The notes beneath the pieces are model-generated. The model searched no databases. It saw only the letters and a program-made list of their open reading frames with translations, and had not been told where the DNA came from. This document shows positions 39,790-52,454 of a stretch of DNA of 56,982 nt, piece after piece. Within the stretch, counting starts at the first letter, position 1; every line of letters starts with the position of its first letter. Where the stretch lies: the NCBI GenBank assembly GCA_017652105.1, contig JAGCBP010000003.1, positions 1 through 56,982 on the forward strand, given 5' to 3'. The stretch comes from Candidatus Saccharimonadota bacterium. GTDB lineage: Bacteria; Patescibacteriota; Saccharimonadia; Saccharimonadales; Saccharimonadaceae. The position numbers were made by a program, and so were the translations under genes.

Positions 39790-41592
39790 TTATTTCTGAT
39801 TAGGGTTGGTAGTGATCAGGCTTTCCTCTGTTTCTGAGGCAATCACTTGAATATGTACGTGGTTTTGCCCCGCAAAGAATAGCCCTTGCCCCACCGGGAA
39901 GTTCGCCAACCTTCTTTTCTCTTCCTCTGTCAATTTAAACACATCCGCTAGCACATCTACCGCCGATGCCGACTGCTTCAAAAGTAGTTGCATAGAGGAG
40001 TTTGCCACAATCGCCCGGCCCATTTTCATTCCCATAAAGTCCTCTACATCCTGCGTAATCGTTGTGAGCCCAAGATAATATTTACGGGCTCGTTTCGCAA
40101 GAGAAAACAAGAAATTCGCCGAATCTTCAAACTGCATCAATTGCCACGCCTCATCCACAATTAGAAGGCGTTTCTTTTGATTTGCCCGCACAATATTCCA
40201 AATGTGCGACAAAACAATATACATTGCCACCGGCCGAAGCTCATCCTCAAGATCGCGAATATTAAATACTACCATTTGATTATTAATATCTACGTTGGAT
40301 TGCTGTGAGAAAATTCCCGCAAAAGTCCCCGTGGTATATTTGCGAAGCCTTTGCGCTAATTGCGGTCCCGAGCCTTCCATATGTAGCAATGTGTCATAAA
40401 GATTCAAAATTGTCGGCGGTGTAGATTGATGTGTTAATGGATCCGACGTAATTCCCGCCCGAGCATAGGTATCAATCAAAGCCTGATCAAGATCAGCTTC
40501 TTCATTTGGGCTAAGCGCTGCTTGCCCACTTGCTGCCCCACCGAGCATCAATCTAAAGAGCCCGTGCAGCGTCACTAGGTTAGCTCGAAGGGCATCATTG
40601 GCATCCTCAGAATCTATCACCTTTGGAAGGTCAAATGGATTAATTCTTACATCCGAATTTAGAGACAACCGAACATAAGAACCGCCCACCGCATCGCAAA
40701 GTTTCTGATACTCATTTTCAGGATCGATAATAATGATTTCCGCCCCCACCATCATCGATCTAAGAGCTTCGAGTTTCACTGTAAAAGATTTACCTGCACC
40801 AGACTTCGCAAACACCACCATGTTGGCATTCTCAAGCGAAAATCTATCAAAAATCACCAAACCATTATTATGCATATTGATGCCATATAATATACCTTTG
40901 TCCTGTGTCAGATCCGCCGAAGTGAATGGGAATGAAGTCGAGATTGCACCAGTGTTCATATTTCGCCGAATCTGCAATTGATCAGTACATTGCGGCATGA
41001 TTGAATTAAGTCCTTGCTCTTGCTGCGAGTTCGCCACCTTCGAGAAAATCATTTGCTGGCCAAAAATTGTTTCAATCTTTTGTTGCACAAATTTAAGTTC
41101 ATCCAAAGAATCCGCCCAAATTGTCACATAAAGTCCAAACCGGAAAAATCTTTCTGCTCCCACCTGCAATTGATCACGCAATTCCTCAGCATCGTTAATC
41201 GCCGCTTCAAGCTCTGGATCACGCACTTTACCTTTTTCTACATTAAGATTCATCGAGGCTTCTAGCTGAGTCACCTTAGTCCGCAAATTTTTCATCACTA
41301 CTGCCGATTCTACTGGATAGATATACATCGACACATCAATTACTTCATCAATATTAATAATCGGCGAAATCCAACCCGTATAAAGACTTCGCGGGTATCC
41401 ATATACATAAATAGTCCGTCCGTATTTAGTGCCAAGTCTAAAATAATCCGAATGAATTTCAATTGCCGATGGCGAAATCAAATCTCTAAGAGTATTTGTA
41501 CCCTGCTCAAAAGCCTTTTGGATTTCTGCCATTTCCATCGCTTCAGCTTGCGCCGCGATTTCTACTGCAGTCAATTTCTTTTTCTTAGCCAT
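39790..41592 (-). CDS. VirB4/TraC-like secretion ATPase
   Basis: Energy-supplying ATPase of the T4SS-like machine, 600 residues. Walker A is KSGAGKS at 263-269 and Walker B is LLIVDEAW at about 467-474, followed by the conserved LGLTTITQDVEDF segment. The N-terminal part (about 30-220) is the VirB4 N-terminal-like domain. It overlaps the upstream gene by eight bases, so the two may form one functional unit. No coupling protein (VirD4) or relaxase is present in the window. Confidence 0.93.
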   Translation of the reverse strand: MAKKKKLTAVEIAAQAEAMEMAEIQKAFEQGTNTLRDLISPSAIEIHSDYFRLGTKYGRTIYVYGYPRSLYTGWISPIINIDEVIDVSMYIYPVESAVVMKNLRTKVTQLEASMNLNVEKGKVRDPELEAAINDAEELRDQLQVGAERFFRFGLYVTIWADSLDELKFVQQKIETIFGQQMIFSKVANSQQEQGLNSIMPQCTDQLQIRRNMNTGAISTSFPFTSADLTQDKGILYGINMHNNGLVIFDRFSLENANMVVFAKSGAGKSFTVKLEALRSMMVGAEIIIIDPENEYQKLCDAVGGSYVRLSLNSDVRINPFDLPKVIDSEDANDALRANLVTLHGLFRLMLGGAASGQAALSPNEEADLDQALIDTYARAGITSDPLTHQSTPPTILNLYDTLLHMEGSGPQLAQRLRKYTTGTFAGIFSQQSNVDINNQMVVFNIRDLEDELRPVAMYIVLSHIWNIVRANQKKRLLIVDEAWQLMQFEDSANFLFSLAKRARKYYLGLTTITQDVEDFMGMKMGRAIVANSSMQLLLKQSASAVDVLADVFKLTEEEKRRLANFPVGQGLFFAGQNHVHIQVIASETEESLITTNPNQK

Positions 41593-42442
41593 TTTCTTTC
41601 TCCCCTTTCTTTACATAAAGTGTCGCAAGTTTAGAAAAATCTACCAACGGTTCTCTCACCGCCGTATCTGGATTATTAAAGTTATAATACAGCTGCGCTA
41701 GCTCTTTAGTGTTAAGTCTCACTGAATGTATCCCAATCTGGAATAATCCCGAAATCACCGTATCTACTCTATTGTTAAGTTCCGTCATTGCCTTATCGTA
41801 AGTCACTCTATCAATTTTCGTTACCTCTGGCCCTTTAGACTTACCAAAAGTTTTAAAGAAATTCTTAGTTTCTTGCAAACCTTTTTCTGCATCCGGCGAA
41901 GTATAATATGGTATCACGATAAAGAATGATTTGTCCATAATATTAGCTTCTTGCGAAAGAATCTGGATGAAATTAATATAATCATCCATCAAAACGCCCA
42001 GAAGCATGTTGTCGTTATTGCGGCGAATTTCTGTCAGGCGTGAAAGATATGGCCCAATATCCACTCTCTGGCTTCTCACCAAAATTTGCGTAGTAAACTG
42101 CAATGAGTTTAGGAAATTTTGATATGAATATTCTACGCCTTCCCGTTCCATATCACTCATGAGGTCAAAGTTAATCGATTTACAAGCTACCACCGCCCGA
42201 AAAGATCCATCTTTCATAATCACCACATTATCGCGAAGCTCAGAAATCATCAAAGTCGCCTGGGTAGACATTGGGTTGTCTTTATTCGGCGAAACTGGTG
42301 CCGCTTGATTAGCCGCCATCGCCACCGAACCCATACCCTGCATATTCATATTTGGCTGTTGCATCATATTTTGCTGCATCATTGGCTGCTGCGCCGGCAT
42401 TGGCTGCTGCGGCATAATTTGTTGTGGTTGTTGCGGATTCAT
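41585..42442 (-). CDS. T4SS-associated protein with Gln/Pro/Met-rich N-terminus
   Basis: Protein of 285 residues encoded between the PrgI and VirB4 genes. The first 60 residues are a low-complexity Gln/Pro/Met stretch. The remainder is a soluble domain (IMKDGSFRAVVACKSINFDL, then LVRSQRVDIGPYLSRLTEIR) like the N-terminal domain of CagE/TrbE/VirB4 proteins, as in the TraC-type proteins of CPR secretion loci. It may be the split-off N-terminal partner of the ATPase encoded directly downstream. Confidence 0.78.
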   Translation of the reverse strand: MNPQQPQQIMPQQPMPAQQPMMQQNMMQQPNMNMQGMGSVAMAANQAAPVSPNKDNPMSTQATLMISELRDNVVIMKDGSFRAVVACKSINFDLMSDMEREGVEYSYQNFLNSLQFTTQILVRSQRVDIGPYLSRLTEIRRNNDNMLLGVLMDDYINFIQILSQEANIMDKSFFIVIPYYTSPDAEKGLQETKNFFKTFGKSKGPEVTKIDRVTYDKAMTELNNRVDTVISGLFQIGIHSVRLNTKELAQLYYNFNNPDTAVREPLVDFSKLATLYVKKGEKENG

Positions 42443-42445
42443 AAT

Positions 42446-43306
42446 CTAGTGTAGCGAAACAAATACTTCGCCATTTTCCTTTCTATTTATTCTATTAGCT
42501 TCTTTCGCGATGGTCGCAACCGAAAAATCATCGTTGTGTGCTAATTCCATTATACTATTGTTTATCGGTTTTGGGGAAGGTTTTTCTTCCGGCTTCACTT
42601 CGGCTTCTTCCGGCTTTATCAAAACATCATTATTTTCAAGCTTCTCATCCGCCCTTAAAATCACTTTCTCCCCGCCATGGTAAGTAGGTTCATCCAACGC
42701 CATTGCATTTGCCGCATCATTTTTTTCGATCGCCGCTCTCATTTCATCCACCGCCGTGTTGTGCCGACTCATTTTGTCTTGGTCAATCACTCGGTTAAGC
42801 ACTTGCGATTGATAAGTTTCAAACATATCCGGCGTAGCGTTTGCTTCAGCCACCAAATCCTCTCGCATCGGACTAGCCCCAGCTCCTTTAATCGCATAGC
42901 CTTCCGTATCCACAATATCGGCAAGAAACGACAATCTATGCGTGGCTTCCTCACTAGAAATATCTCGGGTTCTCACATCCTCCGCAATTTTTGGTGCCGT
43001 AATCAAAATTGTCGATTCCTTTTGACCCGGCATCCACACCCTTTTGCGCGGCTTCAAATAATACGATACTAATGCCGCTAGATATGTTTCCATCGGCTGG
43101 TCTTTTTTGAGCGGCAAAGCTAGTGCCAAAAAGAAAAACACAAATGGTACCGGAATTATCGCCAGTACTGGAAATAATTGAAAAAGTCCCACCGCAAGCG
43201 CAATTAATCCTCCCGCAATCAAAAGATAAACAAACTGCCGAAAGCTAAACGGTCCGATTAATTTATCATCCGCCTCAACATCCTGAGGCACTTTATATTG
43301 CGCCAT
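42446..43306 (-). CDS. PrgI-family T4SS membrane protein
   Basis: Protein of about 286 residues. The N-terminal 110 residues match the PrgI family (PF12666): MAQYKVPQDVEADDKLIGPF, two membrane helices, then LALPLKKDQPMETYLAAL. The rest is a long acidic cytoplasmic tail. PrgI-like proteins stand in for VirB3 beside VirB4. The start at 43306 is chosen because the upstream in-frame codons contain the TGTTATAAT promoter. The gene is followed by 41585-42442 with a three-base gap. Confidence 0.88.
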   Translation of the reverse strand: MAQYKVPQDVEADDKLIGPFSFRQFVYLLIAGGLIALAVGLFQLFPVLAIIPVPFVFFFLALALPLKKDQPMETYLAALVSYYLKPRKRVWMPGQKESTILITAPKIAEDVRTRDISSEEATHRLSFLADIVDTEGYAIKGAGASPMREDLVAEANATPDMFETYQSQVLNRVIDQDKMSRHNTAVDEMRAAIEKNDAANAMALDEPTYHGGEKVILRADEKLENNDVLIKPEEAEVKPEEKPSPKPINNSIMELAHNDDFSVATIAKEANRINRKENGEVFVSLH

Positions 43307-43315
43307 ATAATATAT

Positions 43316-43324
43316 ATTATAACA
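43316..43324 (-). promoter_or_regulatory. Promoter of the prgI-virB4 operon
   Basis: The minus strand reads TGTTATAAT nine bases before the start codon at 43306, so the leader would be at most a few bases. Confidence 0.65.
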
Positions 43325-43342
43325 TAAAATTTTAACCATAAG

Positions 43343-44101: not shown

Positions 44102-47100
44102 TTATGCATCTGGGTATTTGCTTTCATCCTGAAGCAAATCTTCTAGATTCTGCTTCAGATTGTAAGGCTCGATGTGAGTTCTGTTTTTTACTTGCTGCTC
44201 ATAATATTCTTTAAATTCTTTTTCTACCAAGCTCGTATTCTCTCCAAACCATTCCTCTAAAAGATCTAGACAAAGCCCATAAAATTCACCCGTATCCATA
44301 TCTTGATGATCGTGATATTCCTTATCTAATATATCTCTAAAGCTCTGTCTCGTACCCGCATCATAAATTCTTACAGTAGGCTCTTCGCTATCATTAGAAT
44401 CGCCTTTTTTCTCTTCATCACGCTGAAGTTTCCTTAGGTTTTCATAATATTTAACTTCTTTCGCCATCGTTTCTTCATCATCAAGATTAACCCATTTGCG
44501 CAACCAGTCTTTCGCATTATTAGCGGCACCAGAACGTCTAGTTCTATAAATTTGTTCAAGTTTACCAGTTTCACCAAGAATCTTTCTCACTTGTCTACCA
44601 GCAAATTCCATCTTGAGAGCCTTGAGATCCTTCTTTCTCAACTCGTTAGCTTTATCTTTATCCATATCACCATATCTAGTTTGAATTTCAGCTTCTCTCT
44701 TTGCGTATTCAGCTTTTCTCTCATCATACATTTCACGCTCTTCAGGATCCTCATTTTTAGATTCTAGACCATCAAGATAGGTAGCCAACAAATGTTCCAT
44801 TGTTGCATCACGATAATCAGTTCGCATACCAAGTATCTGACCAGTGGTTTGGTCCTTAAAGTAATCGTTCGTTTTTCTACGATAATACTTTTCCACGTCA
44901 TCACTAAAGTCTTTATCATTTCCATCCTTATCTCGGCCTTTAAAACCTTTACCCCATACTGGAGTCAAAGCATAGGTTGGTTCGTTATCCTCTAATATTG
45001 GGTTTCCATCACTATCTTTCTTTTGCTTCAATTCATACCCAGTCCAGAATTTGACCGCACTATTTATCTGTTCGCTACCAGATAGCCATTTCAAGCTAGC
45101 CGAGAGGAATGCTGGTTCAAGCGCAGTCTGGATCTCTTCACGTTTCTTCAACCATCCAGCCACATCCCACTGAGCATCATCGCCATTATATCCATACGCT
45201 CTCTTCAAACTCTCATCTAGGTTAGAGAAGGCCGTTCTCTCAATGTTATCAAGCGAAGTACCTTCAGCCAACTTAATTATATCCTTCTTGGCATACATTC
45301 TGCCAGTTGGATTCTTATCAGTTATCAAATCTGGCTCACCGTCATGATAGCCCTTAATATACTCATCATATGTAAAATCTAGCACTTTACGTTCGCCCTT
45401 ATTATACACACTTGCTGTCTCAAGATTAATATATTTACCAAATCTTCTCAGCAACGGGTCATTATCTTTTACTTCAAACATCAAGAAAGATGCCAGCGCT
45501 TGAGAAGCGTGTGTGCCAAGCTGTAACCCTCCACCAATGTTCTTATTCAAAATGTTATCCATCTGTTCTTTTACGAGATCGGTATCGCCACGCATATTAA
45601 GCACTCTGAGGCCCGAAATAATTGCATCAATATTATCAGCTGCTTTTGCCGCCCCCATATCATCGGCTATTTTAGTTAATTCATCCAGCCTATACATCAC
45701 ATCTTTAGTCGGCGGAGTAAGTTCAAAGTACTTTTGCATCTTCGTAGCCATCACTTTAGCTTGCGTATCATAAGCCTGCGCCGCCGCAGCCACCGCATAG
45801 TGCGTATCCACCACATCGCCTTCCATAATCTTAGAGAGATCAGTATATCTATCCGCTGCTTGCACCGCCGCCAAGCTACCAGGCTCAAAGTGCCGCTTGT
45901 ATTTACTACTTGCGATTCTCCGGCCATCAGCATCCGTCGTAGTCCCATGCGTTGCATCCATATGCGCATTCATTGCCGCTTCCATCCGTTCACGGAAACC
46001 AACCGCATTCTTGTAGTCAATTCTCTCGCCTCTAGCCTGTTCCATTTTGAGCTTATCAAACGCCTTCACATTAGCACTATCAAGAGCACTAAGTCTTGCT
46101 TTTTGCGCCCTTGTACCATTCTTTTTCAATGCCTCAAGCTGGCCCATACCCTTGTTCATATTATTCTTGTGCCTCAAAATCTTGTTTTGATACTCAGCGT
46201 TTCTAGCCTGTGCCTCATAAGATTCCTCACCCTCCTTTGAAGGCAAACCTTTCCTCGTGTAATTTCGCATCGCTGAATAAGCAAGACCTCTGTTTTTTAC
46301 AGTCTCCATGTGTTCTTTGGTTTCCTCATCACGAGCAATCTTTCTGTCAGACAAGAATTGTCTTAGCTTGAGAGACGGCGTATAAGCGTTTGGCGAAGCC
46401 AAATGCTTTTGTTTCGAAAGCTCTTGGTGCGAAGTAGCCCAGCCCCGTACACCACCAACCGCACCGCTTGCCAAGCCATTGAGTTTGGCATTGACGGTCG
46501 ATAGGAAAGTACCAGACATCTTCATCAAGCTCCAAGCGAAAAATAGTGGGAAAATTTGTACCGCCACCCCAATTAGCACTCCAAAACCATTCTGAGATGA
46601 AACAATAATTGCCCAACCCGCTATAGAGGAAGCCCCAAACAAAAGCGAAAATGCCGGATAAAATATCAGCATTTGGAACAAAAGCTGTCGCCATTTTTTG
46701 AACCATTGTTCTGTGTTTGGCAAAATATACGCCACCATTGCAAGAGGTGCAATCATAATTAGAAGTGTCACCACCGCTTGGCGCATTGCGATTGTCACAA
46801 GTCCAATCACCACCGATACCAGAGCACCAAACGCCAAAGGTATCAACATCCATATCGCCCCTGTTTCAAAGGCGATCAGCGCGCCACCAATTGCAAGCGA
46901 TGTACCACCGGAAATTGCACTATACATTTCTGACATCTTTACCCCCGTCATTTGAACTTCGCCTTCTACGCCTGGCGTTATAGACGATTCAATTGACTCA
47001 AACAAACCTCTAAGGCCATCGCCAAAGATATTGGAGACATCCACCGCCAAAGAACAAATATAAAATGACAAGTTTACCAATATTGCTGCAATGATTAACT

Positions 47101-47530
47101 TCGGCAAAGCCTTTTTAACACCATAATTTGTAATTCCCACCCCTGTAATTTGCGAAAATACCACCACTAACAGGAATACAATAAACAGTACATTCGTCAC
47201 CCCCTGAAAATACTTCCATATTTCAAAAATCGGCGAGCCATCTTTAGGTTCTACCGGATTAACTTCTAGTACATCCTGGGTTTTATCATACAAAAAGTCT
47301 ACAGCTTCAGAAATCTTACCTGTTGATGGACACACCAGCCACCCTAACGATCCGAGACTATCCTCACAAGTAGCCCCAACCGCCGGTTTTTCCTCTGGTT
47401 CAGCATATACATTTTTAGAAGTTCCAGGTATCATCCCAAACAAACTGGAAAGCATTACGACAAGAGCAAAAAGACACCCAAAAACCTTATTTCTGATACC
47501 ATTTTTCAGGTTCCTTATTCTTATCATCAT
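44102..47530 (-). CDS. VirB6/TrbL-like polytopic T4SS protein with long C-terminal domain
   Basis: Protein of about 1142 residues. A signal-like N-terminus (LFALVVMLSSLFGMIPGTS) precedes an extracytoplasmic patch, then about six to seven membrane helices between residues 110 and 370 in the TrbL/VirB6 manner. A charged cytoplasmic region of some 750 residues, rich in coiled coil, follows. It probably forms the inner-membrane channel with PrgI and VirB4. The start at 47530 follows GGAAGG; an upstream in-frame ATG is ruled out because its codons contain the -10 box. Divergent from the pilin array. Confidence 0.82.
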   Translation of the reverse strand: MMIRIRNLKNGIRNKVFGCLFALVVMLSSLFGMIPGTSKNVYAEPEEKPAVGATCEDSLGSLGWLVCPSTGKISEAVDFLYDKTQDVLEVNPVEPKDGSPIFEIWKYFQGVTNVLFIVFLLVVVFSQITGVGITNYGVKKALPKLIIAAILVNLSFYICSLAVDVSNIFGDGLRGLFESIESSITPGVEGEVQMTGVKMSEMYSAISGGTSLAIGGALIAFETGAIWMLIPLAFGALVSVVIGLVTIAMRQAVVTLLIMIAPLAMVAYILPNTEQWFKKWRQLLFQMLIFYPAFSLLFGASSIAGWAIIVSSQNGFGVLIGVAVQIFPLFFAWSLMKMSGTFLSTVNAKLNGLASGAVGGVRGWATSHQELSKQKHLASPNAYTPSLKLRQFLSDRKIARDEETKEHMETVKNRGLAYSAMRNYTRKGLPSKEGEESYEAQARNAEYQNKILRHKNNMNKGMGQLEALKKNGTRAQKARLSALDSANVKAFDKLKMEQARGERIDYKNAVGFRERMEAAMNAHMDATHGTTTDADGRRIASSKYKRHFEPGSLAAVQAADRYTDLSKIMEGDVVDTHYAVAAAAQAYDTQAKVMATKMQKYFELTPPTKDVMYRLDELTKIADDMGAAKAADNIDAIISGLRVLNMRGDTDLVKEQMDNILNKNIGGGLQLGTHASQALASFLMFEVKDNDPLLRRFGKYINLETASVYNKGERKVLDFTYDEYIKGYHDGEPDLITDKNPTGRMYAKKDIIKLAEGTSLDNIERTAFSNLDESLKRAYGYNGDDAQWDVAGWLKKREEIQTALEPAFLSASLKWLSGSEQINSAVKFWTGYELKQKKDSDGNPILEDNEPTYALTPVWGKGFKGRDKDGNDKDFSDDVEKYYRRKTNDYFKDQTTGQILGMRTDYRDATMEHLLATYLDGLESKNEDPEEREMYDERKAEYAKREAEIQTRYGDMDKDKANELRKKDLKALKMEFAGRQVRKILGETGKLEQIYRTRRSGAANNAKDWLRKWVNLDDEETMAKEVKYYENLRKLQRDEEKKGDSNDSEEPTVRIYDAGTRQSFRDILDKEYHDHQDMDTGEFYGLCLDLLEEWFGENTSLVEKEFKEYYEQQVKNRTHIEPYNLKQNLEDLLQDESKYPDA

Positions 47531-47561
47531 AAAAATCGCCTTCCAATTAGGCTTGTCAATA

Positions 47562-47570
47562 ATTATAGCA
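47562..47570 (-). promoter_or_regulatory. Promoter of the VirB6-like gene
   Basis: The minus strand reads TGCTATAAT, 31 bases before the start at 47530, with GGAAGG between. Confidence 0.72.
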
Positions 47571-47609
47571 CACATAAGCGTTTTTGTCAATGCAAATACC
47601 CCTATTTTA

Positions 47610-47638
47610 TTGACTTTTCTCCAAAATCTCGCTATTAT
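47610..47638 (+). promoter_or_regulatory. Promoter of the pilin array
   Basis: TTGACT and TATTAT are separated by 17 bases; the ATG at 47647 follows nine bases after the -10 box, so the leader is very short. It stands back-to-back with the VirB6 promoter. Confidence 0.72.
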
Positions 47639-47646
47639 TTAAATAT

Positions 47647-48414
47647 ATGAGTAATTTTCTCAAAAAAATTATCGTTTTTCTGGGTATTATCGCTTTACTT
47701 TCTGCCACTTTTTCTATAATCTCACCAGCTTCCACATTTGCCGAAAATGACCTAAAAAGAATAGATGGCAGTAGTTGTGAACCATTACTCGGCCTAACCA
47801 ACTGGGACTGTGGAGTTTCAGAAATGAATAACGAGACTCAGCTCGTCAATAATATTGCTGTCATCGCTACCAATATTCTCACCGATCTCACCGTTATTGC
47901 CGCTTACCTAGTACTAGGCTATGTCATCTATGGCGGCTATCTCTATATGTTCTCCTCTGGCGATCCAGGCAAAGCCGCCGCTGGCAAAAAGACTCTCCAA
48001 CATGCTTTCATTGGCCTTGCCATCACTATGTCGGCCTATGCCATTTTTGGCGCTATTCGTATTGCTCTTGTTGGCAATAGCGTCGAACTCAGTCAATGTG
48101 CCGAAGAAGGAGGATGCGTCACTGGCGATGTTATGATCACTAACCTTATTCAATGGGTACTCGGCATGGCCGGTGCGGTCGCCGCCATTTTTGTAGTGGT
48201 TGGAGGCTGGGGCTATATTACCGCTTCTGGCGATCCAAACAAACTTCAAAAAGCCAAAACCACTATTCTATATGCTCTTATCGGTTTAGCCATCGTAGCC
48301 CTTGCCGAAATTCTCACCGCCTTCATTTCCAACCTAATCAAAGATGCCAACGGAGAAACTTCGTTTGTTCAAACCACAGAAGTAATCAATCTAAACAAGG
48401 AGAATATTAAATGA
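47647..48414 (+). CDS. Double-domain T4SS pilin-like protein
   Basis: Protein of 255 residues with a signal peptide (about 1-32) and two pilin-type units in tandem. Each unit has two helices around a G-x-x-Y-x-x-S-G-D-P-x-K turn: GGYLYMFSSGDPGKAAAGKK at about 97-116 and GGWGYITASGDPNKLQKAKT at about 187-206. The units resemble the VirB2-like T4SS pilins of CPR bacteria (PF18895), which normally have one. It overlaps the next pilin gene by four bases. It may be an adaptor or cap rather than a bulk subunit. Confidence 0.82.
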   Translation: MSNFLKKIIVFLGIIALLSATFSIISPASTFAENDLKRIDGSSCEPLLGLTNWDCGVSEMNNETQLVNNIAVIATNILTDLTVIAAYLVLGYVIYGGYLYMFSSGDPGKAAAGKKTLQHAFIGLAITMSAYAIFGAIRIALVGNSVELSQCAEEGGCVTGDVMITNLIQWVLGMAGAVAAIFVVVGGWGYITASGDPNKLQKAKTTILYALIGLAIVALAEILTAFISNLIKDANGETSFVQTTEVINLNKENIK

Positions 48415-48860
48415 AAAAATTTACCACCATCATTACTAGCCTCATTCTAATGGTTTTTGGGCTTGCTTTAGTCCCTGCTAATACACATGCTGCCATAAAC
48501 TGTAGCGACAATACCATCCCGCCAAGCGTCTTAAGAGCTAACGGCTGCTCTTCCGACGACGATGAGCCAGAACTTAGCGATATTATAGTTAATATTATCA
48601 ACGGAGCAATCGGTGTCCTTAGCGTCGTTATTGTTATTTTCATTATAGTCGGTGGCGTTAATTACATGACTTCTGCTGGCGACCCAGGCAAAATTGAAAA
48701 AGCCAAAAAGACTATTCTCTATGCTGTAGTCGGTGCTATTATCTGTGTCTTAGCTTTTGCTATTACCAATTTCGTAATTGGAGCATTAAAAAATGCCGAT
48801 AGTGGCAGTGAAATTGATGGCGGTGGACCAATTAGCTCAGTATTTTACCCAGAAGATTAA
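48411..48860 (+). CDS. T4SS pilin-like protein
   Basis: Protein of 149 residues. A signal peptide (about 1-27, ending near THAA) is followed by an acidic Cys-containing stretch, then the two-helix pilin unit with GGVNYMTSAGDPGKIEKAKK as the polar turn and an acidic tail. Two cysteines (CSDN and GCSSD) before the first helix could form a disulfide outside the cell. It is translationally coupled to the double-domain pilin (ATGA overlap). Confidence 0.85.
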   Translation: MKKFTTIITSLILMVFGLALVPANTHAAINCSDNTIPPSVLRANGCSSDDDEPELSDIIVNIINGAIGVLSVVIVIFIIVGGVNYMTSAGDPGKIEKAKKTILYAVVGAIICVLAFAITNFVIGALKNADSGSEIDGGGPISSVFYPED

Positions 48861-48930
48861 GTCGAAAAACTATTGCAATTATAGAAACATTGTTATAAAA
48901 TAATGATAAGTAAAACAAAGGATTTTTTAA

Positions 48931-49248
48931 ATGAACAATATTCTTACACATTTCGCCGCCAACACTGGCATGAACGGAGTAAGCCAACTCAAAAATGTCG
49001 GTAATAGTGATGCTGATTTACAAAGTGCCGTAGTTAATATTATTAACGCCGTTATTGGTATTTTAGCCGTTGTCTGCGTTATTATTATCATTATCGGTGG
49101 TGTCAACTATATGACTTCCTCTGGCGACGCTGGTAAAGTCAAAAAAGCCAAAGATATTATTCTTTATGGCGTCATCGGTATGATAGTTTGTGTTCTAGCC
49201 TTTGCTATCACCAACTTCATCATTGCTAACGTCCTAAAGGCAGCCTAA
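48931..49248 (+). CDS. T4SS pilin-like protein without obvious signal peptide
   Basis: Protein of 105 residues. The pilin unit (two helices around GGVNYMTSSGDAGKVKKAKD) is very close to that of the preceding gene, but the N-terminal 30 residues are polar (MNNILTHFAANTGMNGVSQL), so export must use the first helix itself or another route. It has its own promoter (TTGCAA-17-TAAAAT), an AAAGGA site and a terminator, so it could be expressed in large amounts as the main pilin. Confidence 0.83.
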   Translation: MNNILTHFAANTGMNGVSQLKNVGNSDADLQSAVVNIINAVIGILAVVCVIIIIIGGVNYMTSSGDAGKVKKAKDIILYGVIGMIVCVLAFAITNFIIANVLKAA

Positions 49249-49260
49249 ATCTTTAGTCAC

Positions 49261-49287
49261 AAAAGCCTAGCAATGCTAGGCTTTTTT
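49261..49287 (+). terminator. Intrinsic terminator
   Basis: AAGCCTAGC pairs with GCTAGGCTT around AAT and is followed by TTTT. It ends the transcript of the third pilin gene. Confidence 0.9.
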
Positions 49288-49308
49288 GGTTGTACTTAAT
49301 AAAAAATG

Positions 49309-49317
49309 TGGTATAAT
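49309..49317 (+). promoter_or_regulatory. Leaderless promoter of the fourth pilin gene
   Basis: TGGTATAAT ends six bases before the ATG at 49324. Confidence 0.76.
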
Positions 49318-49323
49318 TAAACT

Positions 49324-49710
49324 ATGAAAAAGATTTTGAGAATTATCTTACCACTGGTTATCTGTGGAGTTTTTATTGGTATTAATATAGCTAGCACATT
49401 TGACGCTTCTGCCATGACCCTCCGTGAAGGCGCTGAAGCCGCCAAATGTACCGAATGTCCAGAGAATCTTTTTGGCGATGCCGGTGTATTCAAGCAGATC
49501 ACCAATGTTGTCTTGTATATTGTAGGTGTAATTGCTGTTATTATGCTCATTATCGGCGGTATCAAATACGTCATTTCCGGCGGTGACGCCAAAAAAGTTA
49601 CCGATGCCAAAAACACCGTTCTCTACGCTATCATCGGTCTTATCATTGCATTCTTAGCCTACGCTATTGTTAACTTTGTTATTACTTCACTTCCTAGCTC
49701 CGCTAGCTAG
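49324..49710 (+). CDS. T4SS pilin-like protein
   Basis: Protein of 128 residues. A signal peptide (about 1-30, ASTFDASA) is followed by a short CTECPENLFG segment with a CxxC pair and then the two-helix unit with the turn GGIKYVISGGDAKKVTDAKN. It has its own leaderless promoter after the preceding terminator, and ends convergent with comF, overlapping it by eight bases. Fourth member of the array; the CxxC distinguishes it from the others. Confidence 0.85.
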   Translation: MKKILRIILPLVICGVFIGINIASTFDASAMTLREGAEAAKCTECPENLFGDAGVFKQITNVVLYIVGVIAVIMLIIGGIKYVISGGDAKKVTDAKNTVLYAIIGLIIAFLAYAIVNFVITSLPSSAS

Positions 49711-50362
49711 AATAAGCGATCACGGCTATTATAATGCGCTTCGCGCCTCCCGCGCGAAGTTTTTTTACGGCCGCCTCTATGCTAGCACCCGTAGTCCATA
49801 CATCATCTAATAATATATATGTTTTGTCTTTATCGATTCTGGCTCTTGGATTCAAATCATAGGCCAAATTAGCCTGAGAAAGCCTCTCTTTTCGATTTGC
49901 TCCCACCTGCACAGTATTTTTATTACGAACAAGCATTCGTCCCACTGGTATTTTGCGTATCTTTGACAGATTTTTTGCAATCAAATACATATGATCAAAC
50001 CCCCTAGCTCTAACATGATGAGTCGCAGTAGGCAGTGGCACCAAAATTGAATTTTGAGGTAGTCTCACCGGTAAACTCTCGCTCATCATCTCGGCCAAAG
50101 GTTTTGCTAAAGCTTTTATAGAATAGTACTTATAGTCATGGATCAACTCACCCAAAACCCCCTCGCGTGAAGACACTGTATATATCGGCGGTAAGTTCTT
50201 ATGGTCTCTAAATTTTTCACAAACGCCATTGCGGTTATGCATGATGTTATTTTTACAACACTCGCAAAATGCTTCACCAAGTCGCCCACAACCCCTACAA
50301 GAGTAGGGAGAAAGCAGGTCCAGAAGGCTCGGAAATGTTGTATTTTTTACAATAAAAGCCAT
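49703..50362 (-). CDS. comF: ComF-family phosphoribosyltransferase-like protein
   Basis: Protein of about 219 residues tied to DNA uptake. An N-terminal zinc-binding segment (CRGCGRLGEAFCECC) is followed by a double-domain PRTase fold with the PRPP-binding motif ILLDDVWTTGAS and the conserved RGFDHMYLIAK and RLSQANLAY stretches. I place the start at 50362; the in-frame ATG at 50410 lies beyond the oppositely directed Hsp20 promoter. Its position next to the pilin array raises the possibility that the secretion-like locus also takes up DNA. Confidence 0.88.
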   Translation of the reverse strand: MAFIVKNTTFPSLLDLLSPYSCRGCGRLGEAFCECCKNNIMHNRNGVCEKFRDHKNLPPIYTVSSREGVLGELIHDYKYYSIKALAKPLAEMMSESLPVRLPQNSILVPLPTATHHVRARGFDHMYLIAKNLSKIRKIPVGRMLVRNKNTVQVGANRKERLSQANLAYDLNPRARIDKDKTYILLDDVWTTGASIEAAVKKLRAGGAKRIIIAVIAYSS

Positions 50363-50369
50363 AATTCTC

Positions 50370-50398
50370 TTGATTTTACTACAAAAGTGCTTTATAAT
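50370..50398 (+). promoter_or_regulatory. Promoter of the Hsp20 gene
   Basis: TTGATT and TATAAT are separated by 17 bases. No CIRCE copy is seen near it. Confidence 0.75.
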
Positions 50399-50428
50399 AA
50401 AGCATAACAATATATAAGTGGAGGAAAT

Positions 50429-50938
50429 ATGGCTCGTACAAATAGTGATGATTTGTTAGACGATGAGCTAGCTGCAGCATTCCTAAGCGAGGGTGATGAC
50501 ACTACATCTACTCCAAACGCAAAAGAAATTGCCGATGAGCTAGTAGCAACTGAAGAGTCTAGCGAACCAGCAACTGAAGATGAGTGGGCGAACGAAACCG
50601 ACGATTTCCCTGGACAGCTTGCAGTGGATGTCTACGAAACCGCCGACAAATTAGTAGTAAAAGCAAGGACTGCTGGCATCTCAAAGTCAGACCTTGATGT
50701 AAGTATTGCCGACAATATCTTGACTATCTCCGGCGTACTTTCCGGCGGAGAGGATGAGCAAACCACTAGATGGCACATTCAAGAGTGCTACTGGGGAGAG
50801 TTTTCCAGGATGATTGCATTGCCTGTACAAGTACGCGAAGATGAAAATAGCGTCAAGGCAGAGCTCAAAGATGGCGTTCTTACCATTACCTTTGAAAAAG
50901 AAAAGGTTGAAGCGCCAAAGAGAATTGCAATTCAATAG
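50429..50938 (+). CDS. Hsp20/alpha-crystallin small heat-shock protein
   Basis: Holdase chaperone of 169 residues. A long acidic N-terminal arm (about 1-60) precedes the alpha-crystallin domain: QLAVDVYETADKLVVKA, DLDVSIADNILTISGV, the conserved GEFSRMIALP, and AELKDGVLTITFEK. The C-terminal tail ends in RIAIQ, with an I-x-I-type anchor. The GGAGGAAAT site is strong. Unlike dnaJ and groESL it has no CIRCE site, so control differs. Confidence 0.93.
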   Translation: MARTNSDDLLDDELAAAFLSEGDDTTSTPNAKEIADELVATEESSEPATEDEWANETDDFPGQLAVDVYETADKLVVKARTAGISKSDLDVSIADNILTISGVLSGGEDEQTTRWHIQECYWGEFSRMIALPVQVREDENSVKAELKDGVLTITFEKEKVEAPKRIAIQ

Positions 50939-50964
50939 AGAGTGGGCGAATGGGTTGTACTACA

Positions 50965-50993
50965 ATCGGACTACTTTAGTAGTCCGATTTTTG
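50965..50993 (+). terminator. Intrinsic terminator overlapping a convergent gene
   Basis: CGGACTAC pairs with GTAGTCCG around TTTA and is followed by ATTTTT. The last codons and the TAA stop of the convergent minus-strand gene (50976) are inside the hairpin. Confidence 0.9.
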
Positions 50994-52454
50994 TCTCTTA
51001 TATATTCTTACAATTTCTTCCCAATCATCATTTCTATCTTCATAAATCTCTTCGTATCTTACGTCATCAAGATCAAATAATCTATCGTCATCGTAAAGCA
51101 ACAAGTAATCAAAATTATACTTATCCAAAAAATCTGTTTTTTCGATTTTGTTATGTTGTAAATCATACCATTCCACAAAAATATCTTCCTTACCATTGTT
51201 AGCCTTCAAGAAAACCTCCATCCGAGAGTCCATATAGGTTTTATATCCTCTATATATTGCATACCCACCCCCGTCAAATCCTGCATATATTTTTAAAGTC
51301 TTTTTATCAATATCTCCTACATCTTTATCTAAGGCATCCAAAGCCGCCACAGCGTATTCAGGTGGTTTACCAAAACCAGCCGAATCAAACATTTTTGCCA
51401 CCGTCACCGTTATAATCATCACTAATGACAGAATCCCCATCCAAGACAACACCATCCATCTAATTTTTCTAGTTTTCCATTTTTCTATCCAAACATCTTT
51501 ATATACAGCAGCCAATGGGAATAATAACACTAAAATCAATTGACTTAGACCCTTTATTGTATTAAGTGCCAATGCCAAAAAGCCAAAAATCATTAAAAGC
51601 CAACGCATTCGCATATTCTTCTTTCCTTCAAAAATATATAATATCAATACAAATGAAAACGTTGCACAATACATCATTGTAGTACTGTCCATAAACGGAG
51701 CAAACGGCTTCAATTCTTGAATAGTATCATGCGCCTCTGGCACTCCATAACTTGTCAGGATAAACGTCATCATCTTGAATCCATACGGATTCAAAAAACC
51801 TACCACAAAAGAAATTGCCAACACTAATAATAATGGTTTAGTTCTGTATCCCTGAAGATGTAGTTTTTTAGATTTAAACGAATCTATTATATATACACCG
51901 ATTATCAATATTATTATTGGCCACAATGATGCGTGTAGATTAATTTGCAAAAGCGACAGCACTGGAATCCACCACAAATATTTACTTTTATTAGTTCTGA
52001 TATAGAGCTCCAAAAGATATATTAAGAGCATCATGATACAATAGCTCACCATCTGTGCTCTCGTCACCACAAACCACCGCCCAAGTAGCAGATCCGTCAA
52101 AATCATAATCAAAAGCGACAGATTTTCATTTTTGTTACTCACTACCATACAAACTTTATAAATTAGATAACAAAGTAACACATTTAAAAGTAACATCCCG
52201 ATATATATCCCCACCGGCCCAAATACCGAATAAATCAAATAAAAAATCGCCGCAAATCCATAGTTCTGCACGGTTACTTCCAAACCTTCATGCATCGACA
52301 GCTGGTCCTCATAATATATACCGTTCGTCACAATCTCTCTTCCCTCAGCCAGCACGTACCAAGTGTCACTATCGAGCGAATTATTACATACCATCACCCC
52401 CGCCACCGGCACCAAAAACGCAATCAAGAACTTCAGCCATTTCATCTGTTTCAT
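50976..52454 (-). CDS. GT-C-like polytopic membrane protein
   Basis: Protein of 492 residues with about 11 hydrophobic helices and a C-terminal soluble domain (about 385-492). The first external loop DSDTWYVLAEGREIVTNG has the acidic pair and the W-x-L-x-x-G pattern found in GT-C glycosyltransferases of the PMT/ArnT type. It may therefore transfer a sugar from a polyprenyl-phosphate donor to a surface acceptor. The start lies eight bases after TATAAT. It is isolated from the capsule genes. Confidence 0.65.
   Translation of the reverse strand: MKQMKWLKFLIAFLVPVAGVMVCNNSLDSDTWYVLAEGREIVTNGIYYEDQLSMHEGLEVTVQNYGFAAIFYLIYSVFGPVGIYIGMLLLNVLLCYLIYKVCMVVSNKNENLSLLIMILTDLLLGRWFVVTRAQMVSYCIMMLLIYLLELYIRTNKSKYLWWIPVLSLLQINLHASLWPIIILIIGVYIIDSFKSKKLHLQGYRTKPLLLVLAISFVVGFLNPYGFKMMTFILTSYGVPEAHDTIQELKPFAPFMDSTTMMYCATFSFVLILYIFEGKKNMRMRWLLMIFGFLALALNTIKGLSQLILVLLFPLAAVYKDVWIEKWKTRKIRWMVLSWMGILSLVMIITVTVAKMFDSAGFGKPPEYAVAALDALDKDVGDIDKKTLKIYAGFDGGGYAIYRGYKTYMDSRMEVFLKANNGKEDIFVEWYDLQHNKIEKTDFLDKYNFDYLLLYDDDRLFDLDDVRYEEIYEDRNDDWEEIVRIYKRQKSDY

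Follow-up and report, generated by a model that had tools for sequence, protein, structure and literature searches.

Arrays of type IV secretion system (T4SS) pilin genes have already been published for Saccharibacteria (PMC12102498, PMC10633639, PMC12857230), and in Southlakia the T4SS pilins were reported to be essential for epibiotic growth (PMC10633639). One published suggestion for the presence of several pilins is host-range variation (PMC12102498), and the fusions mentioned in the portions of that paper available to us concern VirB3-VirB4. The accessible text on TrhA describes a pilin in which the N-terminus is linked to the C-terminus, both lying on the pilus surface (PMC13031515), while that on the archaeal pilins reports CedA1 to be unprocessed and TedC to be processed, CedA1 being an instance of unprocessed pilins able to form filaments (PMC9905601). 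Within the freely available main texts that our search covered, and as far as the accessible portions of these sources go, we found no description of fused T4SS pilins or of ordered pilin classes.

Here we analyse a pilin locus in a Saccharibacterium, a very small bacterium that depends on a host; its genus includes Candidatus Nanosyncoccus alces. The locus lies in a stretch of 56,982 nucleotides, the whole of which we call the window, and its four pilin genes are named A to D (Table 1).

Results

The pilin genes and their setting

Four successive plus-strand open reading frames, which the initial annotation had recognised as pilin genes, are present in the window, and all four exceed the cut-off (26.6 bits) of the Pfam family PF18895 (T4SS_pilin), with scores of 66.1, 49.4, 46.6 and 48.5 bits for A, B, C and D respectively. 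Together they hold five T4SS_pilin units, every one above the Pfam gathering score, and two of the five stretches lie in A, which bears out the proposal that the first gene has two units in tandem. The G-x-x-Y-x-x-S-x-G-D turn, said to be common to all units, is exact in four; by reading, unit A2 has Ala for Ser. The related model NF045849 (Mbov_0395 pilin-like conjugal transfer protein, cut-off 40) is exceeded by A (43.5), B (47.3) and C (51.3), D scoring 30.3. Matches to PF04956 (VirB2/TrbC, gathering cut-off 27.9) stay below threshold in D (23.0 bits, E 9.3e-5) and C (18.6 bits, E 0.0022), and 9 of 24 A-type proteins match this family at E<=0.01. PF18895 matches occur in 145 of 151 genomes of the family, mostly several per genome; a sixth unit is carried by another contig (C4) of the window's own genome (668 kb in 21 contigs), and its nearest relatives in the unit tree are two displaced pilins from the window's genus, followed by units of the P1 class described below. 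No relatives of A were found in viral contigs.

AlphaFold2 models of A (pLDDT 78.3, pTM 0.62) and D (78.7, 0.52) are helical hairpins. When these models were compared with the PDB using Foldseek and VIA-align 2, generic helical bundles (ferritins, ABC transporters, chemoreceptors) were returned, none at E<=0.001, and no VirB2 or conjugative pilin stood among the matches listed; these comparisons are uninformative on the VirB2-type fold, the second point on which the initial annotation had offered its reading for refutation, and do not count against it. PDB sequence searches gave no match. Hydropathy places an N-terminal hydrophobic segment in A, B and D and none in C, in agreement with the earlier observation that the third gene lacks a signal peptide, and the terminator ascribed to that gene corresponds to a terminator-like hairpin downstream of C. 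Extracellular cysteines had been offered as a mark of the second gene; B does have two ahead of its unit, but they are not special to it, for A has a pair ahead of unit 1 and another pair in the linker. The outside segments of the pilins are acidic and the loops mostly basic, a pattern that fits N-out/C-out hairpins in which the loops face inwards and the termini, like the linker, face outwards. The start of B overlaps the stop of A.

The Patescibacteria T4SS cluster is represented by VirB4 and PrgI, both over cut-off, and by VirB6-like and TrsD-like genes, both under it, all beside the pilins. Of the 81 loci compared, 66 have a VirB6 homologue close to the array and 70 have ComF there. A divergent promoter-like pair occupies 47562-47638, with 12/12 consensus matches on the VirB6-like side and 10/12 on the A side, where the site lies only 8 nt before the ATG of A; the two-hexamer scan gave 8 sites against 7.9 in shuffles, so that such sites are no commoner than in shuffled sequence. 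Rfam, applied at gathering threshold over 47000-51500, gave no match.

Table 1. Position of the pilin genes, their parts and neighbouring features in the window.
Feature	Coordinates	Strand	Basis
VirB4-like ATPase	39790..41592	-	NF045971 391.5 bits, above cut-off; PF19044
TrsD-like protein	41585..42442	-	NF041427 E 2.7e-7, below cut-off
PrgI (VirB3-like)	42446..43339	-	PF12666 46.9 bits, above cut-off
VirB6/TrbL-like membrane protein, divergent from A	44102..47590	-	PF04610 24.1 bits, below cut-off 25.9; likely start ATG 47530 by reading
Promoter-like site before VirB6-like gene, TTGACA-17-TATAAT	47562..47590	-	Consensus match only
Promoter-like site upstream of A, TTGACT-17-TATTAT	47610..47638	+	Consensus match only
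Gene A, double-unit pilin (P2+P3 fusion), 255 aa	47647..48414	+	ORF list; PF18895 66.1 bits, two stretches; classes from unit HMMs and unit tree
Predicted signal peptide of A, residues 1-32, ..TFA/END	47647..47742	+	Hydropathy; cleavage site by reading only
Pilin unit A1, P2 class	47845..48057	+	41.4 bits; A1 model 97 vs 47/50 bits (A1 itself a training member)
Linker A1-A2, predicted extracytoplasmic, residues 145-161, with two Cys and a net charge of -4	48079..48129	+	Hydropathy/charge; fused-vs-split comparison
Pilin unit A2, P3 class	48136..48327	+	41.6 bits; A2 model 92 vs 62/67 bits (A2 itself a training member)
Gene B, single-unit pilin (P4), 149 aa, signal peptide, two Cys ahead of unit	48411..48860	+	ORF, PF18895, unit tree, hydropathy
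Pilin unit of B	48573-48776	+	Pilin-unit profile search
Gene C, leaderless single-unit pilin, P5 position, 105 aa	48931..49248	+	ORF, PF18895, unit tree, hydropathy
Pilin unit of C	49036-49221	+	Pilin-unit profile search
Terminator-like hairpin 3' of C	49261..49285	+	Hairpin scan
Extended -10 TGGTATAAT, 6 nt before D ATG	49309..49317	+	By reading; absent from two-hexamer scan list
Gene D, solitary ComF-linked pilin (class S), CxxC, 128 aa	49324..49710	+	ORF, PF18895, unit tree, synteny
Pilin unit of D	49492-49680	+	Pilin-unit profile search
Inverted block: D (+), comF (49703-50410, -), hsp20 (50429-50938, +)	49324..50938	.	Comparison with 12 loci

Ordered subunit classes

The loci compared were the window and 80 fetched regions (one of them contig C4 of the same genome), in which units were found by iterated HMM; 75 of the 81 were labelled, L082, L121, L122, L130, L132 and L140 being left out. 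When HMMs built from the two units of 42 fused genes were scored on the 32 unfused arrays, the order P1 - P2 - P3 - P4 - P5 and onwards was obtained: the P2 model picks the expected gene in 31 of the 32 and the P3 model the next gene in every one, with margins as narrow as 1-2 bits in some arrays. A tree was made of 499 units, and the closest unit belonging to a different locus bears the same label for 58/59 P1 units, 73/75 P2 units (a value partly built in, since the P2 labels came from HMMs of fused genes), 67/75 P3 units and 47/52 units of the solitary class S; consistency is weaker for P4 (42/75) and P5 (54/73).

The class order is also kept in other families of the order. This, together with the clustering of units by position across loci, argues that the array is, on phylogenetic grounds, an old, fixed and ordered series of specialised orthologous classes kept across many genera, and not a set of recent copies; the earlier proposal of several subunit types is upheld in this form. 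P1 is missing from the head of the array in the window's own genus. P2 has an outside segment of its own that is conserved and includes a pair of Cys and an invariant Trp. One region (L076:7371-8510) holds an ORF of 379 aa that combines a pilin unit scoring below cut-off with alpha/beta hydrolase matches; it could be either a fusion or an ORF that runs on.

Fusion of P2 and P3

The double-domain gene, on whose conservation elsewhere the initial annotation had staked its reading, is conserved: of the 80 named loci that an A-type profile retrieved, 79 have a multi-unit gene at the A position, P4 being joined in as well in three of these (L184, L200, L205). Among the 75 labelled arrays, P2 and P3 are fused in 43, a figure that is not a prevalence because the regions were mostly chosen from hits to A and fused loci are over-represented; the other 32 have separate P2 and P3 genes, mostly abutting. 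P2 alone is an exported protein of about 145 aa, with a hydrophobic N-terminal segment in 32/32 unfused arrays, and P3 alone is a leaderless protein of about 95 aa (89-106 aa in 30/32), with such a segment in 5/32. The spacing from P2 stop to P3 start is -4 to +9 nt in 31/32 unfused arrays, and P3 lies in a different frame in 21/32, hence the split arrays do not reflect stop readthrough. That the split genes are sequencing errors or readthrough products was ruled out, given 32 genomes with 21 out of frame. Alignment A2 comprised 61 of the 66 references listed, together with the window. Judged by unit class and gene order, A is a P2 subunit joined to the leaderless P3 that comes next in other genomes.

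The minimum number of changes between fused and split states is 13 on the VirB6 tree, nine of them forced by strong (starred) branches, 12 on the ComF tree (seven forced) and 13 on the P2+P3 tree (four forced), the first two trees covering 63 and 59 of the 75 labelled loci. Five genera (g1, g7, g11, g17, g36) hold both states, and, of 17 genomes of the window's own genus, 15 were scored, 12 of them as fused and 3 as split. In one sister pair on the VirB6 tree, the P3 head of the split member (G127), ...NIPNLTGEQVLHNGLNIAY, corresponds to the end of the linker in the fused member (G090), ...GITLPAQSADTVLKNGLNIVY, from which the P3 start region has gone. As reconstructed from these trees, the P2-P3 join has been switched on and off many times among related species.

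Fusion differs by gene border, with 43/75 at P2-P3, 0/59 at P1-P2 and 1/75 at P3-P4, all borders being equally tight. When the order was sampled evenly, 10 of the 28 genomes from the window's family had an uninterrupted two-unit match or were known to be fused; among 20 order-level loci, which were picked from hits, P2 and P3 were fused in three, P1 and P2 in one (G542), P3 and P4 in one (G484), and 15 were unfused. Two loci have other arrangements: a 364-aa protein with four T4SS_pilin stretches (L250:1012-2103), from a genome related only at the level of phylum, and four tandem C-like leaderless pilins that remain separate genes (L153:7218-8607).

Gene D and a three-gene inversion

In all 12 same-genus loci examined, C is followed by hsp20 (-), comF (+) and a D-type pilin (-), where the window has D (+), comF (-) and hsp20 (+). 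An HSP20 profile supports hsp20; the ComF-like protein has phosphoribosyltransferase matches and was named by reading. The nearest units to D in the unit tree are solitary pilins of relatives, at a path length of 0.03 to the closest. One inversion of 49324-50938 accounts for the strand of D, its own start signal and the terminator ahead of it. On this synteny, D is a solitary pilin beside comF, placed on the plus strand by a three-gene inversion, and not a member of the array by descent; the description of four genes of one array fails for D, whose candidacy as a fourth array gene we reject. The CxxC ascribed to D is present and is conserved in class S, both Cys occurring in at least 90% of 47 sequences, but the leaderless promoter claimed with it is only plausible, resting on the extended -10. 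Each inversion breakpoint adjoins a terminator-like hairpin (49258-49288, 50959-50994), and no inverted repeat pair linking the two breakpoints was found.

Discussion

We propose that the locus encodes VirB2-like subunits of a chromosomal T4SS in a Nanosyncoccus-like Saccharibacterium. P2 would insert via its signal peptide and leave both of its ends outside; the linker of A would lie outside the membrane, followed by the P3 hairpin in the same N-out, C-out topology, and once fused, P3 would no longer have to translocate an N-terminus by itself. P2 and P3 would take neighbouring positions at 1:1 in the finished pilus or channel, in which case a covalent join on the outside would carry no cost; such an external linker from one subunit to its neighbour would be feasible, given that the ends of TrhA are joined and on the pilus surface. 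It is probable, we believe, that P2 and P3 are partners in a heteromeric VirB2-like assembly, placed next to each other in a 1:1 ratio. The machine would then be heteromeric, and not one major pilin plus spare antigenic copies; presumably it contacts a bacterial host, by comparison with the Southlakia report. More tentatively, this monoderm may assemble five or six pilin classes in defined proportions, with P2-P3 an obligate 1:1 heterodimer block that has repeatedly been made covalent. Such a heteromeric machine would differ from the known conjugative pili with a single major pilin.

An alternative, which we judge unlikely, is that the fusion is neutral: P3 is leaderless and abuts P2, such that loss of the stop and start would be topologically harmless and the two forms equivalent, saying nothing about neighbours in the machine. 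The frequent change of state suits this explanation, and the P2-P3 fusion could indeed stem from permissive topology instead of contact, joining being easiest where the downstream gene has no signal peptide. However, fusing still imposes 1:1 stoichiometry and closeness, yet it is tolerated in a system reported to be essential in Southlakia. The only argument against permissive topology is the rarity of other fusions, which extends to the tandem leaderless C-like genes of L153.

That the array consists of amplified, interchangeable pilins serving antigenic or host-range variation, on the analogy with Bartonella and Anaplasma drawn in the accessible text of PMC12102498, is in our opinion very improbable. 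Arrays of 2-11 divergent pilins are common according to that text, and C-like genes are multiplied in some loci, L153 among them, but P1, P2, P3 and S hold their identity and order across genera, and only 61 of the 499 units have their closest relative within their own locus.

Also very improbable is the idea of the initial annotation that the protein with two domains serves as a dedicated base, adaptor or cap while the single-domain proteins would form the shaft. In its favour, A is conserved and P2 has the conserved outside segment described above. In relatives, however, the two units are encoded by neighbouring genes of their own, which suggests that A is a fused pair of ordinary neighbouring subunits and that two domains per chain are not required, and the large extra parts seen in some relatives, a better sign of a tip, are on P1 and P4 and not on P2 or P3. 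Two loci of another genus (L083:7155-8771, L087:5041-6708) encode, after P3, a pilin with two C-terminal Big_2 Ig-like domains, an adhesin candidate, and P1 reaches 353 aa in some relatives; these additions suggest that display or tip roles belong to P1 or the pilin after P3 rather than to A.

With ordered classes and a recurrent P2-P3 fusion, the reason for several pilins in Saccharibacteria becomes testable. The claim is that distinct subunits have fixed roles, with P2-P3 a named pair expected to touch at 1:1, and fused and split relatives provide natural, ready-made controls.

Compared with known families, A, B and C score above the cut-off of the Mbov_0395 family model (NF045849), which we take, from its name, to originate in mycoplasma integrative elements, and D scores below it. 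The two-helix unit resembles that of VirB2/TrbC conjugative pilins (PF04956), although the matches in the window do not reach the curated cut-off. The archaeal proteins CedA1 and TedC are domesticated VirB2-type pilins existing in both unprocessed and signal-bearing forms; there, the accessible text describes one pilin per filament and no heteromeric array or fusion (PMC9905601). The Patescibacteria VirB2-like arrays (Quinonero-Coronel 2025, PMC12102498; Southlakia ML1, Wang 2023, PMC10633639) share with this locus the Pfam family, the chromosomal setting with VirB4, PrgI and VirB6, and divergent tandem pilins; to these the present locus and its relatives add, relative to the accessible descriptions, a two-unit pilin, ordered orthologous classes and the P2-P3 fusion.
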